64,000 nt of DNA, from NCBI GenBank assembly GCA_905182065.1, contig CAJIZN010000001.1, forward strand, positions 558,001 through 622,000. Direction: 5' to 3'. Position numbers and translations under genes: made by a program. Positions 38,797 to 48,975 of this stretch are shown here, piece after piece (the first letter of the stretch is position 1; each line of letters begins with the position of its first letter). Source of the stretch: Candidatus Marisimplicoccus framensis (GTDB taxonomy: Bacteria; Bacteroidota; Bacteroidia; Flavobacteriales; Flavobacteriaceae). The notes under the pieces were generated by a model, which ran no database searches, had not been told where the DNA came from, and saw only the letters and a list, made by a program, of their open reading frames with translations.

Positions 38797-39361
38797 TTTC
38801 TATAAATTCTTTGATTAGTTTAAAAGCAATTTTTTTTGATTCGTTAAGATCACTATTTATTATAATATTATCAAATTTTGATGCAAAATCTAACTCATTT
38901 TCTGCCTTTTTTAGTCTAGTTTCAATTTCATCATTTGAAATATCACCTCTATCAATTAATCTTTTCTTTAATATTTTTAGACTTGGTGGCATAACGAAAA
39001 CTGAAAGAGTTTCCAAAGGAAACATCTCCTTTATATTGACTCCCCCTTCAACATCTATATCAAAAATTACAATTTTATTATCATCCCAGATTCTATTTAA
39101 TTCAGATTTAAGTGTGCCATAAAAAACTCCACCATAAACTTCTTCATACTCTACAAATTTTTGAGTATTAATTTTCTCTTTGAACTCTAAATCACTTAAA
39201 AAATAATAATCTTCACCATTTTTCTCCTTACCTCGAGGTTTTCTTGAAGTAGCAGAAATAGAAAATTCAATTTTATTGAACATAGAAAGTAAATACTTGA
39301 CTAAAGTTGTCTTACCTGCTCCAGAGGGTGCTGAAAAAACAATAAGTTTTTTACTATTCAT
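38789..39361 (-). CDS. gmk: Guanylate kinase
   Basis: A 190-residue kinase turning GMP into GDP. The P-loop reads FSAPSGAGKTTL, followed by SATSRKPRGKEKNGEDYYF, the GMP-binding block, and VIFDIDVEGG. Overlaps yicC by 1 nt and nadD by 8 nt. Confidence 0.97.
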   Translation of the reverse strand: MNSKKLIVFSAPSGAGKTTLVKYLLSMFNKIEFSISATSRKPRGKEKNGEDYYFLSDLEFKEKINTQKFVEYEEVYGGVFYGTLKSELNRIWDDNKIVIFDIDVEGGVNIKEMFPLETLSVFVMPPSLKILKKRLIDRGDISNDEIETRLKKAENELDFASKFDNIIINSDLNESKKIAFKLIKEFIENE

Positions 39362-40215
39362 TATAATATATTTAGAACATTTTCTTTAATCTTTTCAAGT
39401 TCTTCTTTCATATTAACCACCATACTTTGAATCTCAAAATTATTAGCTTTTGAGCCGATAGTATTAATCTCTCTGCCGATTTCTTGAGAAATAAATGAAA
39501 GTTTCTTTCCTTTAATTTCTTTGTTTTTCATTTCTGAAGAAAAAAACTTTAAATGATGTTGCAATCTTACGATTTCTTCATTTATATCCAATTTTTCAAT
39601 ATAATATATTATTTCCTGCTCTAATCTAGATTTATCATACTTATCATTAAGTTCATTAAAATAAGACTTGAATTTTTTTTTCTTATCCTTAATTCTATTT
39701 GATTCAACAGAAACTACTTTGTTTATATAGTTATTTATCTTGGAGATACTTTTTTTTAAATCCTTACCTATAGCTTCACCTTCAGTCCTTCTGTATTTTA
39801 TTTGTTTTTGAATAACCTTATCTAAAAGTATTTTAATCTTTTTTTCTTCACTTTTATTAAAAGTAATATTTGAGTTTATATAACTATTTCCTATTAATAA
39901 ATTAGAAATAATCTGAGATTCATCAATTTTAAAATCTTTTCTGAGTTCCTTTATATATGCCTTAATTTTTGATTTATTAAAAGGGATTAAAAGATCTTCA
40001 TTAGTATCTTCTATATCAAGAATTACATCAACCTTACCCTTGATTAGTTTTTCTTTAACAGACTTTCTTAAATATTCTCCAATAAAAGAAAATGATTCAT
40101 GAACTTTGAGATTGATATCAAGTCCTTTTGAATTAAGTGTTCGAATTTCAATGACTATTTTATTACTATTTATAAGCTTCTCTTCTCGTCCGAAGCCAGT
40201 CATTGAATGTATCAT
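39361..40215 (-). CDS. YicC family endoribonuclease-like protein
   Basis: A 284-residue protein with the YicC N-terminus MIHSMTGFGREEKL and the C-terminal DUF1732 block FISQEIGREINTIGSKAN. E. coli YicC (YicC/YloC family) is reported to act in RNA cleavage. The order yicC-gmk-nadD is usual in Bacteroidota. A long lysine-rich central part is typical of AT-rich genomes. Confidence 0.93.
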   Translation of the reverse strand: MIHSMTGFGREEKLINSNKIVIEIRTLNSKGLDINLKVHESFSFIGEYLRKSVKEKLIKGKVDVILDIEDTNEDLLIPFNKSKIKAYIKELRKDFKIDESQIISNLLIGNSYINSNITFNKSEEKKIKILLDKVIQKQIKYRRTEGEAIGKDLKKSISKINNYINKVVSVESNRIKDKKKKFKSYFNELNDKYDKSRLEQEIIYYIEKLDINEEIVRLQHHLKFFSSEMKNKEIKGKKLSFISQEIGREINTIGSKANNFEIQSMVVNMKEELEKIKENVLNIL

Positions 40216-40224
40216 ATTAAAGTT

Positions 40225-40976
40225 TTAAAATTCCCTGATTTTTATATTTCTAAATTTAACATTATTTCCATGATCTTGAAGAGAAATTTTACCAGTTTTA
40301 TATGTCCCAAATGTTGGAGCATAGGTAGCATCAGGTCTTGTAGTTTGGGGGTTAAATTTAGATTTAGATACTAATTCATCCCATTCATTGCCTGATAAAG
40401 GATACGTATATGCTATTTCACCATTCATTTTTATTATTCCAAGATTATTAGAATGATCAATTTTTATTAAAACATGATTCCAATTACCATGATTTTTTAC
40501 CTCTAAGTTTTTGTTGTCTGAACTAACTAGATCAAAGAGTGAGGGAGCCATGTGCAGTTCTGTTGAGGTATAATAATTTTCATTATCCAAAATTTGAATT
40601 TCAGGTCCAGTTTTAAATGGTGCATCAAATTCATCAAGTTCTTTAACCCCATATAATATTCCGCTATTTCCATTTTTGGAAATATTCCATTCAATTGAAA
40701 GTTCAAAATTAGTATACTCTTTATCTGTAACTAGGTCTTGTCCAAATTCTTCGTTGTTAGTAAATATTAACTCACCATTATTAATTGACCATTCACTTCC
40801 AATTGATTCAGCTTTATAAACATGCCATCCATTAAAAGTTTCACCATCAAATATGTATTCCCATTTTGGAGATGTTTCAGTATTACAACTGATTAATAGG
40901 GTCAATAGAATTAAGAGAGATAGACTGAGTACTAAATGCTTTAACTGTTCTTAGGTAAATTATGTTTTTCTTTCAT
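40225..40976 (-). CDS. 3-keto-disaccharide hydrolase-like lipoprotein (DUF1080), copy 1 (one apparent 1-nt deletion near the start)
   Basis: A LamG-like sandwich protein with the DUF1080 start WEYIFDGETFNGWHVYKAE, then NGNSGILYGVKE and the end LQDHGNNVKFRNIKIREF. Proteins of this family hydrolyse 3-keto-glycosides. In the literal frame only a TTG (40905) is available, inside the signal peptide. Reading upstream, ATG at 40976 begins MKEKHNLPKNS in another frame, and one missing T near 40945 would join it to LKHLVLSLSLLILL and the lipobox LLISC, giving 250 residues. It lies downstream of the second DUF1080 gene on the same strand, about 80 nt away. Confidence 0.85.
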
Positions 40977-41056: not shown

Positions 41057-41782
41057 CTATAATTCTTTGATTTTAATATTTCTATACCTAACTGTATGAC
41101 CATGATCCTGCAAACCAATACTTCCTGTTTTAAATTTACCGAAAAACGGGGCATATGTAAAAAATGAATGTTCAGGCCTTAAATTTTCATAGTAATTATC
41201 ATCACTAAATTTTGATCTTGAAACCATTTTATCCCACTCCTCACCATATAATGGAAAAGAGTATACTTTCTCACCGTTAAATGTAATTGAGCCAATATTT
41301 TTCTCATGATCAACTTTTAAAAGAAGGTGATTCCATTCACCATATTTATTGTATTTAATCTTACCAATTGGTTTAAGATCATAAAGAGCTGGAGCCTTAT
41401 GATATCTGTTAGCTGAAAAGTTATCATTATCAAGCACCTGAATCTCTGGTCCAGTTTTCCATGGTTGATTAACTTCAGGAATCTCAACAACTTTGAAAAA
41501 CACTCCACTATTACCACCCTTTACTATATTCCATTCAAGTGATAGTTCAAAATTCGTAAATTTTTTATCTGTAATTATATCATTACCTCTACTTAAATTA
41601 TCATTTTTAGAAGATAAAATTAACTCACCATTTTTTACTGACCATGAATCTCCAACTTCTCCACCATTATATTCATGCCAACCATTTAATGTCTCTCCGT
41701 CAAAAAGATAAGTCCATTCTGAATCCTGGGAAAATCCAATACTTGTTGTTAAAATTAAAAATGTTATTAATGTTTTTTTCAT
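41057..41782 (-). CDS. 3-keto-disaccharide hydrolase-like secreted protein (DUF1080), copy 2
   Basis: A 241-residue secreted protein: signal peptide KKTLITFLILTTSIGFSQ, then WTYLFDGETLNGWHEYNG, GGNSGVFFKVVEI, TGPEIQVLDND and the end LQDHGHTVRYRNIKIKEL. It is a clear paralogue of copy 1 but with a free, not lipid-anchored, N-terminus. The expected action is cleavage of 3-oxidised glycosides outside the cytoplasm. It follows the TIM-barrel gene by 2 nt. Confidence 0.9.
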   Translation of the reverse strand: MKKTLITFLILTTSIGFSQDSEWTYLFDGETLNGWHEYNGGEVGDSWSVKNGELILSSKNDNLSRGNDIITDKKFTNFELSLEWNIVKGGNSGVFFKVVEIPEVNQPWKTGPEIQVLDNDNFSANRYHKAPALYDLKPIGKIKYNKYGEWNHLLLKVDHEKNIGSITFNGEKVYSFPLYGEEWDKMVSRSKFSDDNYYENLRPEHSFFTYAPFFGKFKTGSIGLQDHGHTVRYRNIKIKEL

Positions 41783-41784
41783 AT

Positions 41785-42838
41785 TTAAATATTTAAAATG
41801 TTTCTTAAATCTTCATTATTTGTGTTTCCTCCTGCAAAGTCATCAAATTTTTTATCGGTACAATTAATAATTAAATCCTGAATTATTTTTGCACCTTCAG
41901 TTGCTCCTTGTTCAGGACTTTTAATACAACATTCCCATTCTAAAACTGCCCAAACATCACAACCGTATTGAGTTAGTTTAGAAAAAATAGTTTTAAAATC
42001 AATCTGACCATCCCCAAGTGATCTATATCTTCCAGCTCTATCAGCCCAATCTAGATATCCTCCAAAGGCTCCCTTTTTTACCAGTAGGATTAAATTCAGC
42101 ATCTTTTACATGAAAAGATTTTATAAACTCGTGATAATGATCAATATATGTTATATAGTCAAGCTGTTGAAGAATAAAATGACTAGGATCATAAAGTATA
42201 TTTACTCTTTTATGATTATTTGTAGCTTTCAGAAATCTTTCAAAGGTTATTCCATCATGAAGGTCTTCACCAGGATGAATTTCATAACATACATCAACCC
42301 CATTTTCATCAAATACATTTAAAATGGGTAGCCATCTTTTAGCTAATTCTTGAAAACCCATTTCAACAAGACCTTTGGGAGCTTGTGGCCATGGATGCCA
42401 TGTGTGCCATAAAAGTGCTCCTGAAAAAGTCGCATGAGTTTTAAGCCCTAGTCTTCTACTAGCAATTGCTGCTTTTTTAACTGTTTCAATAGCCCACTTC
42501 GTTCTCTCTTTGGGATTCTTTTTTAGGTTATCAGGGGCAAAATTATCAAACATTAAGTCATATGCTGGAGAAACTGCAACAAGTTGACCTTGAAGATGAG
42601 TTGATAATTCTGTTATTTCTAGTCCATAAGATTTTACTTTTCCTAAAAGTTCATCACAGTAGTCTTGACTATCAGATGCCTTATCTAAATCAATAAGTGA
42701 GGTTTCCCAAGTTGGAATTTGAATTCCTTTATAACCTAATTCAGATGCCCACTTACAAATCCCATCTAATGAATTAAATGGAGCAGTTTTATCTACAAAT
42801 TGGGCAAGAAATACTGCAGGTCCTTTTATTGTTTTCAT
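41785..42838 (-). CDS. Sugar phosphate isomerase/epimerase-like TIM-barrel protein (one apparent 1-nt insertion)
   Basis: A xylose-isomerase-like TIM barrel. The first part has YKGIQIPTWE, TELSTHLQGQL, CYEIHPGEDLHDG and FHVKDAEF, which place Glu/His/Asp metal ligands at strand ends. The literal frame runs on to 42041 after GKKGSLWRI; the true continuation is AFGGYLDWADRAGRYRSLGDG in the next frame, and removing one base at the AAAAAAGGG run near 42070 joins them to 350 residues. No signal peptide, so cytoplasmic. Members act as isomerases, epimerases or 3-keto-glycoside lyases; with its neighbours the last is plausible. Confidence 0.88.
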
Positions 42839-42839
42839 T

Positions 42840-43982
42840 TTAATTTCTATTTAATTTGACCCAAGTATTTCCATTATTATGAGATTCAACAGCTTTTTCA
42901 ATAAAAAGCATTCCTCTTAAACCATCATTTAAATTTGGGTACTCTCCTTCAAATTCTTTTTCACCTCTTATTTCCCTTCCAACACCATTATAGATATTTG
43001 CCATAGAGTCAAACACACCTTCTGGATGTCCAGGTGGAAGTTTAGTGGAAACTTTTGAAAAATTAGAATTATAATCATGACCAGGCTTTAAAACCTTAAG
43101 AGGTTCAGAGTCACTTAAGTGATGAAGATAATTAGGGTTTTCTTGTTGCCATTTTAGCCCTCCTTTACGTCCATATATTGCTACTGTAAAACAATTCTCT
43201 TCACCAGTTGCAATTTGACTAGCTCTAATGACTCCTTTAATATTATCAGAGAATCTGATTAAAATAGTACCATCAACATCCATTGGGTTATCGTCATATA
43301 CATAGTTTAGATCAGAAAGAAGTTCTTTTACTTCCATCCCTGTTACGTATTCTAGCATATTAAAGGCATGCGTTCCAATATCACCAATACAGCAACTAAT
43401 TCCAGATTTATCAGGTTGAAGTCTCCAAGTTTCAGATCGTTTTGTTTTATCATGGATTATTGGATTTATCCATCCTTGATAATATTGAAGATCTACACGT
43501 TGAACTTCGCCTATAACACCCTCTTTAATCATTTCTTTCATCTGTCTTATCATGGGATATCCAGTATAAGTATATGTTACAGCAAATGTTAATTTTTTTG
43601 ATTTATATATTCGCTCTAAGTCTTGAGCCTCTTCAAAAGTTGTAGTCATAGGTTTTTCACAAATGACACTAAAGTTATTTTCTAAAAGCTTTTTAGCCAT
43701 TGGATAATGAAGAAAATTAGGAGTCAGTATGGATACAACCTCAATCCTCTCACTTTCATCCTGCTTTAACTCTTCTTCAATCATCTTTTCATAGTCTTCG
43801 TAAATTCTATTTTCACTAAGACCTATTTCTTTTGCAAACTTTACATTTTCTGAAAAGTTCGGATTAAATACACCTCCAATAATTTCATAGCTATCATGCA
43901 TTGAAGAGGCTATTCTATGAACAATTCCAATTAATGAGTCTCCTCCTCCACCTAAAATACCTAACCTAATTTTATTTTTCAA
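42840..43982 (-). CDS. Gfo/Idh/MocA family oxidoreductase
   Basis: A 380-residue NAD(P)-dependent sugar dehydrogenase. N-terminal Rossmann motif RLGILGGGGDSLIG, then ILTPNFLHYPMAKKLL and CEKPMTTTFEEAQDLE (the EKP motif with the catalytic Lys), followed by the C-terminal substrate domain with CCIGDIGTHAFNMLEYVTG. Such enzymes oxidise or reduce sugar carbons, often C3. The gene overlaps the permease gene by 11 nt and is 1 nt from the TIM-barrel gene. No signal peptide. Confidence 0.92.
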   Translation of the reverse strand: MKNKIRLGILGGGGDSLIGIVHRIASSMHDSYEIIGGVFNPNFSENVKFAKEIGLSENRIYEDYEKMIEEELKQDESERIEVVSILTPNFLHYPMAKKLLENNFSVICEKPMTTTFEEAQDLERIYKSKKLTFAVTYTYTGYPMIRQMKEMIKEGVIGEVQRVDLQYYQGWINPIIHDKTKRSETWRLQPDKSGISCCIGDIGTHAFNMLEYVTGMEVKELLSDLNYVYDDNPMDVDGTILIRFSDNIKGVIRASQIATGEENCFTVAIYGRKGGLKWQQENPNYLHHLSDSEPLKVLKPGHDYNSNFSKVSTKLPPGHPEGVFDSMANIYNGVGREIRGEKEFEGEYPNLNDGLRGMLFIEKAVESHNNGNTWVKLNRN

Positions 43983-45180
43983 TTTCTATTTTTTCGTTTT
44001 TAAAAGTTAGAATAAAAAGAACTAAAACAACTGCCGCAAATATTGCTGGGTAAGTCCAGATTTGTGACCAGTCATGTCCTCCATCAATTACAAATTTATC
44101 AGTAATTCTTCCAGCCAATCTAAAACCAATTAACATACCAATGCCGTATGTAGCAAGTGCAATTAAACCTTGAGCAGCACTTTTGTATTTTTCGCCTGCT
44201 TTATAATCTGTATAAATTTGACCAGAAACAAAGAAAAAATCATAACATATTCCATGAAGAACAATTCCGAAAATTAACATCCACATGTTTGATCCAGTAT
44301 CTCCAAATGCAAACAGTACATATCTTAAACTCCAAGCTAACATACCTACAATTAAGGTTTTCTTTATTCCATATTTATTTAAAAACAGAGGTAGTAGTAG
44401 AATAAACAATGCCTCTGAAATTTGACCTAATGTCATAACTCCTGCAGCATTTTCAACTCCAAGCTCATTTAAAAACAGATTTGCATCTTGGTAGTAAAAT
44501 GCGAGAGGAATACATATTAGAATAGATGAGATAAAGAACACAAGATATCTTGTATCCTTAAGAAGTTTTAGTGCATCAAGACCAAGAATTTCTCTAAGAC
44601 TTGGACTTTCATTTGTTGCTTGAGGTGGAGTTTTAGGTAAAGAAAAACTAAACAAACCAAGAGTAACAGAAACAATAGCTGCCAGGTAAAATGTATATTC
44701 TAATTTTTGGCTTGACTCCCATCCAACTCCATAGCTAATAACAAGACCTGCAACAATCCAACCTATAGTCCCCCAAACTCTAATTTTTGGAAACTCTTTT
44801 GATGGGTTTTTCATTTGTCTAAATGCAATAGAATTAACCAAAGCTAAAGTGGGCATATAAAGAATCATGTAAATTAGAATATATGGGTAGAACTTATCAA
44901 ATCCAAGAGCTACAGAACACATAAATAAAAGCCCACCACCTAAAATATGAATTAGTGCAAGAATTTTTTCTGCATCAAAATATCGGTCTGCGATAAGTCC
45001 AATTATAAATGGAGCAACTATAGCTCCCCATGATTGAGTTTCATATGCTAAGGCAATATCTCCACCTGAAGCACTGAATGCTTGTGATAAAAATGTACCC
45101 ATTGTTACAAACCAACACCCCCAGATAAAAAACTCAAGGAACATCATTACACTTAATTTAAAGCTTGTTGTCTTATTCAT
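43972..45180 (-). CDS. MFS permease, nucleoside:H+ symporter (NupG)-like
   Basis: A 402-residue protein with about twelve transmembrane segments. It begins KLSVMMFLEFFIWGCWFVTM and carries AFRQMKNPSKEFPKIRVWG in the central loop, typical of the NHS branch of MFS. In Bacteroidota this branch is often found with sugar oxidoreductases and TIM-barrel isomerases, so the cargo here is more likely a (keto-)sugar than a nucleoside. That is inference from context. Confidence 0.88.
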   Translation of the reverse strand: MNKTTSFKLSVMMFLEFFIWGCWFVTMGTFLSQAFSASGGDIALAYETQSWGAIVAPFIIGLIADRYFDAEKILALIHILGGGLLFMCSVALGFDKFYPYILIYMILYMPTLALVNSIAFRQMKNPSKEFPKIRVWGTIGWIVAGLVISYGVGWESSQKLEYTFYLAAIVSVTLGLFSFSLPKTPPQATNESPSLREILGLDALKLLKDTRYLVFFISSILICIPLAFYYQDANLFLNELGVENAAGVMTLGQISEALFILLLPLFLNKYGIKKTLIVGMLAWSLRYVLFAFGDTGSNMWMLIFGIVLHGICYDFFFVSGQIYTDYKAGEKYKSAAQGLIALATYGIGMLIGFRLAGRITDKFVIDGGHDWSQIWTYPAIFAAVVLVLFILTFKNEKIEIEK

Positions 45181-45186
45181 ATTATT

Positions 45187-46137
45187 TTAAATTGATTGAC
45201 CAACCTTGATTAATAAATCTCTAGTTGCTTTAATTCCTTCAACTTCAGATAATCTTTCACCTTCATATTCAACTCCAATATACCCTGTATATCCAAAGCT
45301 TTTAACAATCTTCAACATCTTCATGTAATCAATAGTTTTTTCATCACCATTTTCATCAAAGTCATTTGATTTTGCACTTACAGCAAATGCCTTAGGCATC
45401 ATTTCTTCAACTCCTTTATAGAAGTCATATACTGTTTCACAAGTTCCGTCAAAAACAGAACCATATCCTTCGTCTGCCATACAAAAATTTCCAAAGTCAG
45501 GAAGTGTGCCTACATTATCCATGTTCACACCATTAATTGCATTCATTAGTTCAGGTATATTGGATGTAATTCTTCCATGATTTTCGACAATTACATTTAA
45601 CCCAGTTCCTTTTGCATGTTCTCCAAGTTTAGTTAGACTTTCTATTGAAAGAGCCTTCCAAGTTTCAATATCTTTTGATCCATATAAATTAAGTCTAACT
45701 GAAGAGCAATTCATTTCAGCTGCTGTATCTATCCAGAGCTTATGATTATCTATAGATATTAATCTTTGATCTTTATCTTCTCCTGCTAAATCTCCTTCTT
45801 CATCAATCATTATTAATACATTATCCATTCCATTATCAGATGCAAGTTGATTATTCTTTAAAATAAAGTTTTTAATACTAGAAGATTTGTCCTCACTTTT
45901 CATTACATCATCATAAAGTTGATTTACATATTCTAATCCAGTAAATCCTAGATCTTTAGATTTTTCTGCAAAAAGATAAGGAGACATTTCACCTCCTCTT
46001 ATAGCCTTGTTAAGTGACCATTGAGCAAGAGATAACTTAAAAAATATTTCTTTTTGACTCTCGCAGGATAAATATCCTAGGGATGATATTCCAAAAGCTC
46101 CTGTTGAAGCTAGTTTTATAAATTCTTTTCTTTTCAT
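45187..46137 (-). CDS. Exported sugar phosphate isomerase/epimerase-like TIM-barrel protein
   Basis: A 316-residue protein with an export signal: KRKEFIKLASTGAFG resembles a Tat motif with Lys-Arg in place of Arg-Arg, followed by a lipobox-like GYLSC. The rest is a xylose-isomerase-like barrel (SVRLNLYG, VIVENHGRI, LPDFGNFCM, YIGVEYEGE) with the usual Glu/His/Asp ligands. It should act in the periplasm, as folded protein. First gene of the leftward set, 6 nt before the permease, divergent from the GMC dehydrogenase by 99 nt. Activity unknown; 3-keto-glycoside elimination or isomerisation is a candidate. Confidence 0.88.
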   Translation of the reverse strand: MKRKEFIKLASTGAFGISSLGYLSCESQKEIFFKLSLAQWSLNKAIRGGEMSPYLFAEKSKDLGFTGLEYVNQLYDDVMKSEDKSSSIKNFILKNNQLASDNGMDNVLIMIDEEGDLAGEDKDQRLISIDNHKLWIDTAAEMNCSSVRLNLYGSKDIETWKALSIESLTKLGEHAKGTGLNVIVENHGRITSNIPELMNAINGVNMDNVGTLPDFGNFCMADEGYGSVFDGTCETVYDFYKGVEEMMPKAFAVSAKSNDFDENGDEKTIDYMKMLKIVKSFGYTGYIGVEYEGERLSEVEGIKATRDLLIKVGQSI

Positions 46138-46236: not shown

Positions 46237-47944
46237 ATGGATAATAAATTTGACGCAATTGTTGTTGGTACCGGTATAAGTGGTGGATGGGCTGCAAAAG
46301 AATTGACAGAAAAAGGTTTAAAAACTCTTGTTCTTGAGAGAGGAAGGATGATTACACATGTAGACGATTATCATACTGCAAACATGGATCCATGGGATTT
46401 TGAAGGAGGTGACACGATAACTCGAGATGCATATAAAAGACAACCTAAACAGAGTAGAACTGGATATGTAAATAGAGAATCTTCAAGACATCTTTTTGTT
46501 GATGATTTGAAACACCCTTATAATGACGATAAAAATAAATTCAATTGGATTAGAGGATATCATTTAGGTGGAAGATCACTTACTTGGGGTAGACACACAT
46601 ACAGATTAAGCGAATTTGATTTTGAAGCGAATTTGAAAGATGGAATTGGTGTTGATTGGCCAATTAGATATAAAGATATAGCACCTTGGTATGATTATGT
46701 CGAAGAATACATTGGAGTTCAAGGAAGACCAGAAGGACTCCCTCAATTTCCAGATGGAAAATTCTTAAAGCCATTCGACCTAAATGTTTTAGAAAATCAT
46801 ATGAGAAACAGTATAGCTAAAAACTTCAATGATGGAAGAATACTTTCAAATGCTAGAACTGCTCATATTACTGAAGGAACAAAGCCTGGTCTTGGAAGAG
46901 TTACCTGCCAATATAGAAACAGATGTATGAGAGGATGTCCTTATGGAGCTTACTTTAGTAGTAATTCATCAACCTTACCTGCTGCAGAGGCAACCGGAAA
47001 CATGACATTGATGCCAAATTCAATTGTCCATGAAATTATTTATGATGAAGAAAATAAAAAAGCTAAAGGTGTTAGGGTCATAGATGCAGAAAATAATCAA
47101 TCATATGAGTATTATGCTAAAGTAATTTTCTTGTGTTCTTCTACAGTTCCAACGACATCAATTTTGATGCAATCAAAATCAAATAGATTTCCAAATGGAA
47201 TGGGGAATGACTCTGGAGAATTAGGCCACAACATAATGGACCATCATTTTCAGGTTGGAGCTTCAGGAACATTTGATGGTTTTAAAAATAAAACAACATA
47301 TGGAAGAAAACCTGCAGGATTCTTTATTCCTAGATTTAGAAATATTGGTGGAAGTACTAATAGGAAAGATTTTATTAGAGGTTATGGTTATCAAGGAGGA
47401 GCAAATAGAGGGTTTATGAGCATAGCAGACAGCAAAGAAGAACTTGTTTCTTATGGCCCAAGATTTAAAGAAAATATTGTTAAGCAGAGATGAATGGACA
47501 GCAAGCATGAATGGTTTTGGTGAGATCCTTCCATATCATGATAATAAAATGACTCTGAATTATGAAAAAAAGGATCAGTGGGGATTACCTACTGTAACAT
47601 TTGATGCAAAAATTAGAGAAAATGAAATGACAATGAGAAAAGACATGAAGATTCAAGCACAAGAAATGCTTGAAAGATCTGGATTTAAAAATGTGTCTGG
47701 ATATGAAAGTAAATATGTTTTTGGTAATGGAATTCATGAGATGGGAACTGCCAGAATGGGAAATGATCCAAAGACATCTGTGCTTAACGGTAACAATCAA
47801 ATTCATGATGTTAAAAATGTCTATGTTACTGATGGAGCATGTATGACTTCAGCAGGAAATCAAAATCCATCAATAACTTATATGGCATTAACAGCAAGAG
47901 CAGTAAATCATGCAGTGGAGGAATTAAACAAACAAAATATATAG
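46237..47944 (+). CDS. GMC oxidoreductase, FAD-dependent sugar dehydrogenase large subunit with Fe-S type Cys motif (one apparent frameshift)
   Basis: The FAD motif is DAIVVGTGISGGWAAKEL at residues 6-23. The C-terminal part has IHEMGTARMG and the GMC end signature CMTSAGNQNPSITYMAL. Cys224, Cys230 and Cys234 are spaced C-x5-C-x3-C (CQYRNRC and CMRGCPYGA), the spacing of the [3Fe-4S] ligands in bacterial FAD glucose dehydrogenase alpha subunits. The literal frame stops at 47493 after KENIVKQR; the next frame resumes DEWTASMNGFGEILPYHD, so one base too many near 47485 is inferred; repaired length is 568 residues. No signal peptide: export would be with the small subunit encoded next. Confidence 0.92.
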
Positions 47945-47946
47945 AA

Positions 47947-48484
47947 ATGGATAGAAGAACAGCATTAAAAAATATGGAGTTTCATTTGGATCAATTACTT
48001 TATCAACAGGAGTCTTATCTATTATTCAATCATGTCAAACAAATGATCTAAATTGGACACCTAAATTTTTTACAGCAAATAGAATTGGTTTTATGGACAG
48101 GATGCTTGAAATTATTATTCCTGAAACTGATACTCCTGGAGCTATATCTCTAAATCTTTCAAAATTTATAGATGCACATGTACAAAGAATATTTCATTAA
48201 AAAATCAAAATGATTTAAATCAAGAATTGATGAATTCATGAATTTCATTCTCAAAATGAAAATAAAAACACAATAGATGAATAGAATGATGAAATTAGAA
48301 AAGTACTTATCAAATCATCTAGATCAGATGAGTTTACTGAATCAATGGAAAAAATTATTCTGAAATATGTTCTTTTCTAAGACAGATGGGTGTTAATGCC
48401 TATAAGCTAACAGAATACGTTATGACTAACAAACTTGGCTACGTTCCAATTCCTGGATATTATGATGGAAATGTTGATGTCTAG
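47947..48484 (+). pseudogene. Gluconate 2-dehydrogenase subunit 3-like Tat-type small subunit, broken by several frameshifts
   Basis: The ATG at 47947 gives MDRRTALKNM, with a twin-arginine start. One G lost after ATGG at about 47978 moves the rest to another frame: GVSFGSITLSTGVLSIIQSC, then LNWTPKFFTANRIGFMDRML and IPETDTPGAISLNLSKFID, a block typical of gluconate 2-dehydrogenase subunit 3. More indels follow between 48200 and 48420; the last part reads YKLTEYVMTNKLGYVPIPG and stops at 48482-48484. In known FAD dehydrogenases this subunit carries the Tat signal for the whole complex. It is 2 nt behind the GMC gene. The colinear, conserved pieces suggest sequence error rather than decay. Confidence 0.8.
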
Positions 48485-48975
48485 CTAACTATAAATTCAC
48501 CCATCATAAGTTGATAGTGACCTGGGAATGAACATATAAAAATATAAGTTCCTGGCTCTGGTGCATCAAAAGTAATTGTATCTGATTCTCCACCTCCTAA
48601 CATCTTTGTATATGCTAATTCATCTCCTCCTTCAGGAATATACTCTGAATTTCTAGCACCTGCAGCTTTAAGTGCATAGGCATTTACATCAACATCAGTT
48701 TTTAGTAGAACAAAATTATGACCCATTGAACTTGCAGGGAACCTACCGTTATGGTTTAATGTTAATGTGACCTTCTGATTAGAATTAACTTTAATAATCT
48801 TTTTATCAAACTTCATTTGATCATTCGAGTTAATAGTTACAGTGTTTGAAACCATACTGCTTTGAACCATAGTAGGTTCCTCTTTAACTCTCTCATATTG
48901 AAATTTTTCCTTAGTGTTATTTGTATTATTACACGATAGTATAAATAATGATAATAGTAAGAGTCTAATTTTCAT
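48481..48975 (-). CDS. Azurin-like blue copper lipoprotein
   Basis: A 164-residue protein: signal MKIRLLLLSLFILSC with lipidation at C15, a linker, then a cupredoxin domain. The type 1 copper ligands fit azurin exactly: H86 in SMGHNF, C148 and H153 in CSFPGHYQLM and M157, with spacings of 5 and 4. ATG at 48975 gives the proper signal; the longer frame from 48996 adds seven residues. Azurins carry electrons in the periplasm to oxidases or reductases. It faces the dehydrogenase genes, sharing the stop CTAG with the small subunit gene, and is a candidate electron acceptor for them. Confidence 0.93.
   Translation of the reverse strand: MKIRLLLLSLFILSCNNTNNTKEKFQYERVKEEPTMVQSSMVSNTVTINSNDQMKFDKKIIKVNSNQKVTLTLNHNGRFPASSMGHNFVLLKTDVDVNAYALKAAGARNSEYIPEGGDELAYTKMLGGGESDTITFDAPEPGTYIFICSFPGHYQLMMGEFIVS

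Follow-up and report, generated by a model that had tools for sequence, protein, structure and literature searches.

The window analysed here, a stretch of 64,000 nucleotides from Candidatus Marisimplicoccus framensis (Flavobacteriaceae), harbors the genes for an FAD-dependent dehydrogenase of the GMC family and its small subunit, faced by the gene for an azurin lipoprotein (Table 1), and raises the question of which carrier takes up the electrons that this enzyme withdraws from its substrate. The first-pass annotation had proposed a path from FAD through an iron-sulfur cluster to azurin and on to an oxidase, and comparative inference, drawn from gene linkage, replacement of the azurin by a cytochrome and mutual exclusion of the two carriers, lends support to this path. 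With moderate confidence, we favor a periplasmic FAD/[3Fe-4S] glycoside dehydrogenase that would be exported in folded form by the Tat system and would pass its electrons to azurin and then to an oxidase, a cytochrome c being an exchangeable equivalent of the azurin. The two-subunit enzyme, probably a glycoside 3-dehydrogenase acting on a putative sugar substrate in the periplasm, would transfer electrons from FAD to a predicted [3Fe-4S] cluster and thence, possibly directly, to the azurin lipoprotein, which may hand them over to a haem-copper oxidase. Related genera would use a monohaem cytochrome c lipoprotein for the task of the azurin, such that two exchangeable heads would occupy one carrier slot.

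Table 1. Features of the dehydrogenase cluster and the adjacent genes; positions refer to the window.
Feature	Position	Strand	Family match or remark
3-keto-disaccharide hydrolase family protein, second copy	40225..40905	-	PF06439
3-keto-disaccharide hydrolase family protein	41057..41782	-	PF06439
Second TIM-barrel protein, in two frames	41785..42838	-	
Gfo/Idh/MocA oxidoreductase	42840..43982	-	PF01408
NupG/LacY-like transporter	43972..45180	-	PF03825
Xylose-isomerase-like TIM-barrel protein, divergent neighbor	45187..46137	-	PF01261
GMC dehydrogenase, N-terminal fragment (FAD domain, 418 aa open frame)	46237..47493	+	PF00732, E 1.3e-13
C224-x5-C230-x3-C234, probable [3Fe-4S] ligands of GMC	46906..46938	+	
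GMC dehydrogenase, C-terminal fragment, other frame	47444..47944	+	PF05199
Tat-type small subunit (gluconate 2-dehydrogenase subunit 3 family), frame broken	47947..48482	+	intact in close relative L035
Azurin lipoprotein, facing the enzyme genes	48481..48975	-	PF00127
Tether behind the azurin lipobox Cys (CNNSNNSKEKFQYER)	48889..48933	-	

The GMC gene extends from 46237 to 47944 overall and is read in two frames; the breaks in this gene and in that of the small subunit had escaped the first-pass annotation. The cysteines C224, C230 and C234, which had been reported in a C-x5-C-x3-C arrangement, are indeed present, and the pattern recurs in all 115 distinct related enzymes. Their spacing is that of Cys212, Cys218 and Cys222, described as the residues binding the 3Fe-4S cluster in the glucose dehydrogenase of Burkholderia cepacia (BcGDH; PMC6719666), while a profile match (E 5.4e-45) aligns them with the cysteines of fructose dehydrogenase. 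The catalytic histidine and asparagine of the solved enzymes are likewise aligned with GMC in a profile alignment incorporating 12 relatives, both residues being located in the C-terminal fragment. Cys213 of BcGDH, which according to the same source (PMC6719666) forms a disulphide with the small subunit, is replaced by a glutamine in the GMC protein of the window. An intact second pair of GMC and small-subunit genes, encoding products of 571 and 238 aa, was also identified elsewhere in this genome (L034:6572-9003; G000:C1, approximately 981.6 to 984.0 kb). Its GMC shares around 32% identity with the first and contains the same C-x5-C-x3-C pattern, and neither an azurin nor a CxxCH protein was detected within the 17 kb read at this locus.

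The GMC protein had been described as devoid of a signal peptide, and none is visible, given that the FAD-binding motif begins at approximately residue 5. The small subunit had been taken to start with MDRRTALK; this start stands, at position 47947, but the frame is lost within some ten codons and no continuous open reading frame follows, the match to PF13618 being obtained only with internal stops. Small subunits of the relatives carry an RR pair within the first 12 residues in 98/109 cases and a lipobox-like cysteine in 98/109, suggesting that this subunit is likely a lipid-anchored Tat substrate, with which the enzyme would be exported in folded form. The facing azurin contains all four of the copper ligands ascribed to it (H86, C148, H153 and a methionine at 157 or 158), together with a lipobox-like Cys15. 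It scores 56 bits against PF00127 (cut-off: 21.2) and matches the solved azurins (E 1.1e-22), with a score slightly below the cut-off of NCBIfam TIGR02695 (100.3 versus 105.1 bits), and the His, Cys, His and Met ligands are conserved in 28/28 distinct azurin relatives. Upstream of the GMC gene, and divergent from it, lies a block of six genes, of which the two PF06439 members suggest, as a hint only, that the cluster may be concerned with 3-keto-glycoside chemistry. A further open reading frame of 284 aa (39361-40215), which we take to be YicC-like, is missing from the corresponding site in a genome of the same genus (G187).

Two partially overlapping sets of related loci were compared, the first comprising the 40 best-matching enzyme loci from 40 Flavobacteriaceae genomes and the second 80 loci from named organisms, some belonging to other phyla. 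In the first set, an azurin gene is found near the enzyme in 18/40 loci, a protein of about 160 aa with a single CxxCH motif in 9/40 and neither in 13/40; the single-CxxCH proteins of L041 and L092 were assigned to the Pfam family Cytochrom_C. Among the 115 distinct loci of both sets, considered within 9 kb of the enzyme and including some contigs that end early, 22 harbor an azurin, 18 a cytochrome, one both and 74 neither. A multihaem subunit had been considered as the alternative partner of the enzyme, and in this branch a single-haem lipoprotein is found instead. The azurin gene is located downstream of the enzyme genes and faces them in 22/22 loci, as does the cytochrome gene in 15/18, the remaining three being Aquimarina loci in which a cytochrome gene of the same orientation precedes the enzyme by 22-30 bp. 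With carrier and enzyme genes facing each other in 37 of the 40 single-carrier loci, the carrier appears for the most part not to be co-transcribed with the enzyme, and in many loci further genes intervene between enzyme and carrier. A tree of the 41 carrier-bearing enzymes requires, on its well-supported branches, a minimum of four switches between azurin and cytochrome. Both carriers occur in tandem in the single-cell genome AG-916-L03 (L077), which lies outside the genome sample described below and whose GMC shares 92% identity with that of G187. The cytochrome is divergent and its state unsure, since a common start codon is missing ahead of the lipobox. A gene encoding an EamA protein, with no obvious function, also neighbors 7/22 azurin loci and 13/18 cytochrome loci, and a MetB gene five and ten of these loci, respectively.

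Co-occurrence was assessed across 199 Flavobacteriaceae genomes representing 198 genera. The enzyme is matched at E <= 0.001 in 120 of these and strongly in 107 (103 among the matches listed and four from the results table), while azurin is present in 69 and the group-1 cytochrome, the kind found in the enzyme slot, in at least 43, a lower bound as the cytochrome matches of azurin-free genomes were placed in part. Group-1 membership was set by trees, with G168, whose cytochrome is linked to nosZ (the nitrous oxide reductase gene), excluded and G050 and G166 included. The 24 weakest azurin matches, with E above 1e-25, were dropped; nearly all are domains of open reading frames of 650-1190 aa, and the two free-standing ones belong to G022, which was already counted, and G129. 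Conservation of the azurin linkage in relatives had been proposed as a check on the electron path, and a distance of no more than 10 kb separates azurin and enzyme in at least 33 of the 48 genomes with both an azurin and a listed enzyme match, in all 33 downstream of the enzyme and facing it. The group-1 cytochrome is found within the same distance of the listed enzyme matches in at least nine genomes, again always downstream and facing. At the level of whole genomes, azurin and the group-1 cytochrome never coincide, against 14.9 coincidences expected by chance (P 6e-10, a value that ignores shared ancestry). The group-1 genome G129 carries a weaker-scoring azurin-like cupredoxin with azurin-like ligands and no tether, and counting this protein as an azurin gives an overlap of one genome against 15.1 expected. 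One or other carrier is present in 93 of the 107 enzyme genomes versus 19 of the 92 others (P 3e-22, likewise ignoring shared ancestry). Conversely, the enzyme is found in 42/43 group-1 cytochrome genomes and 51/69 azurin genomes, the remaining 18 of the latter showing no strong match. Neither carrier is present in 14/107 enzyme genomes, eight of which have a nosZ-side cytochrome.

Group-1 cytochromes that might lie hidden in the azurin genomes were sought among 41 of the stronger cytochrome-like loci of these genomes, picked by eye. All 39 that could be placed fall outside the group-1 clade (support 100/98), the other two (L197 and L204) having no scorable cytochrome open reading frame, and a nosZ gene adjoins 35 of the 39. 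In a second tree, to which another 39 cytochromes were added and from which four long-branch entries were left aside, all group-1 genomes are contained in one clade (SH-aLRT 100). The cytochromes c located beside nosZ (L167-L174 and L178-L212) constitute the clade sister to the enzyme-linked cytochromes. Enzyme-type cytochromes unlinked to the enzyme were also observed (L157-L166, L175 and L176); in L157 the neighboring genes encode an alpha/beta hydrolase, a bestrophin and a nitronate-monooxygenase-like protein, and open reading frames of similar size occur at several of the other loci. That a monohaem cytochrome c takes the place of azurin in relatives, and that no genome among the 199 contains both, makes a role of azurin as electron acceptor more likely.

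The assembly of the genome under study comprises 1.23 Mb in two contigs and is 87.6% complete. As had been observed, no gene for a multihaem cytochrome c subunit is present in the cluster. A cytochrome c partner encoded elsewhere, which the first-pass annotation had named as evidence that would speak against azurin, was not found in the 87.6%-complete genome: searches for the slot cytochrome, PF13442 and PF00034 yielded two proteins only, both in the cluster encoding the alternative complex III (ACIII) and oxidase. The genome contains one COX1, one azurin and one ACIII-like cluster, the latter with the only two Cytochrom_C proteins of the genome at this completeness, its subunits having been named by size, haem number and gene order. 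In the genome at this level of completeness, azurin is the sole free carrier found besides the ACIII subunits.

This last observation speaks for the chief rival of the favored reading, with which that rival partly overlaps, namely that azurin and cytochrome are general periplasmic carriers serving ACIII, nitrous oxide reductase or the oxidase, and that the dehydrogenase is one donor among several or feeds the quinone pool. The 18 azurin genomes in which the enzyme is not strongly matched point in this direction, as does the ability of nosZ-side cytochromes to bear the same tether as the enzyme-linked carriers, and in R. castenholzii ACIII has been described as donating electrons to a blue copper protein (PMC8552683). 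According to the same source, direct transfer from ACIII to the oxidase may occur in F. johnsoniae (PMC8552683). The facing orientation, the intervening genes, the 18 azurin genomes and 14 enzyme genomes that form exceptions, the paired carriers of L077 and the EamA neighbor are compatible with a carrier whose partners include this enzyme as well as others. A purely general role is, however, at odds with the near confinement of the group-1 cytochrome to enzyme genomes, the far greater frequency of a carrier where the enzyme is present and the retention of the slot beside the enzyme through the exchange of its occupant. We judge it rather unlikely, albeit the most serious of the alternatives.

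A second alternative concerns the broken frames: the pathway may be truly decaying in this strain, with the GMC, small-subunit and TIM-barrel genes reduced to pseudogenes and azurin kept for other work. Three genes of the cluster have lost their frame, that of the small subunit at more than one point. Intact copies are nevertheless present in two close relatives (L035 and L077). In G187, the GMC of which shares 92% identity over residues 3-417, the same genes are found intact and in the same order, encoding a GMC of 568 aa, a small subunit of 181 aa and an azurin of 165 aa. Sixty-eight G187 genes were mapped onto the window and the next 20 kb (L222) and scored for split frames; 15 were flagged, two of them as artefacts of the PF06439 paralogs, leaving 13. 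Ten of these lie outside the dehydrogenase cluster, seven in the window and three on the following stretch, such that the same type of break is seen in other genes as well. Folding of the RNA at the point where the GMC frame is lost gave no signal (z 0.11). The assembly of the region looks unpolished, and with split frames spread across it and intact copies in G187, assembly error is the simplest account of the broken enzyme frames and likelier than decay. Genuine damage, above all to the small subunit, is possible, while decay of the pathway as a whole is improbable. The third alternative, that azurin or cytochrome stands beside the enzyme by descent alone without any function in the pathway, gains something from the conserved EamA and MetB neighbors and the shared ancestry of the sample, but is highly improbable, as inherited position does not explain the swapping of an unrelated redox protein into the same slot and leaves unexplained both the exclusion across whole genomes and the unlinked carriers that co-occur with the enzyme.

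The favored path to azurin, with the cytochrome as its equivalent, also has a structural aspect in the N-terminal region of the two carriers, many of which possess, behind the lipobox cysteine, a stretch rich in K and E followed by F-x-Y-x-R. A model built from 36 cytochrome tethers, four carriers without a detected lipobox being left out, scores above 10 bits in 14/22 azurins and in none of 331 other lipobox open reading frames of the same loci (best: 8.5 bits), while matches to F-x-[YMVI]-x-[RK] occur in 30/36 cytochromes, 13/22 azurins and 0/331 of the others. The eight azurins not scoring above 10 bits lack a clear tether, suggesting that the tether is dispensable for azurin. A profile of leader plus tether, constructed from 12 stretches (five azurins and seven cytochromes) and run over 41 whole genomes, produced 32 matches at E <= 3e-8 in 21 genomes, consisting of seven azurins and 25 cytochromes c, of which 24 belong to the slot family and one is another c-type cytochrome open reading frame. 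One of the 32 is itself a training protein (G006), and the training set also holds a near relative of the azurin in the window; weaker matches mostly involve the leader part alone. This lipoprotein tether is also present in the nosZ-side cytochromes of L167-L174, and a c-type cytochrome of another kind, encoded at L258:2061-2516 in a Flavobacteriaceae genome, bears it as well. Since relatives hold a similarly tethered haem protein in place of the azurin, the copper and iron carriers look exchangeable. Tentatively, and with slightly less than even confidence, we suggest a plug-in system of the Flavobacteriaceae in which one kind of tether would bear swappable azurin or cytochrome c heads serving several periplasmic enzymes, including the GMC glycoside dehydrogenase and nitrous oxide reductase, with repeated haem-to-copper swaps at the same locus, and in which the copper head would be the sole free carrier available to the streamlined genome of the window.

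A survey of azurins, whose operon test included ten Bacteroidetes genomes, reports no clear pattern of gene organization, with the exception of an operon of two genes including a regulator that was seen in two Flavobacteriaceae; nor does it report an N-terminal domain common to the azurins of all phyla (PMC8779525). Neither the pairing of GMC and azurin nor the exchange of azurin and cytochrome in this family was found in the full-text literature searched, in which few subscription journals are covered. The path outlined here would provide a physiological acceptor for a common sugar-dehydrogenase family of the Bacteroidota, strongly matched in 107/199 Flavobacteriaceae genomes, and a parallel beyond photosynthesis to the exchange of plastocyanin and cytochrome c6. 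If the tether acts as a docking piece, it may constitute a ready-made module for wiring dehydrogenases.

Copper and haem carriers are known to replace each other in photosynthesis, where plastocyanin and cytochrome c6 are often switched by copper supply within one organism. The present case is alike in that the two types of carrier appear to interchange in one role, but differs in that the exchange takes place between genomes and in that many azurins and many cytochromes bear a related lipoprotein tether. Azurin also serves as the electron acceptor of aromatic amine dehydrogenase, and has been described in the same capacity for PQQ alcohol dehydrogenase IIB (PMC8348568). The system considered here shares with both enzymes a blue copper acceptor of a periplasmic dehydrogenase, whereas the predicted donor belongs to another enzyme class, an Fe-S GMC protein, and the azurin is a lipoprotein. 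The complexes of BcGDH and the Gluconobacter fructose dehydrogenase (PDB 6a2u and 7w2j) resemble the predicted enzyme in the three [3Fe-4S] cysteines of the GMC subunit and in the presence of a small hitchhiker subunit, putative in the present case, while the cluster in the window has no multihaem c subunit. Another close parallel is the glucoside 3-dehydrogenase of Rhizobium radiobacter, for which a monohaem cytochrome c has been given as the acceptor (Miyazaki et al. 2018, as cited in PMC9915066). It is likewise described as an FAD glycoside dehydrogenase, and the slot of the relatives is correspondingly filled by a separate monohaem cytochrome c. In the window, where the glycoside substrate is putative, the slot is filled with copper rather than haem, and with the known glucoside 3-dehydrogenase using a monohaem cytochrome c, the azurin has the appearance of a copper replacement.
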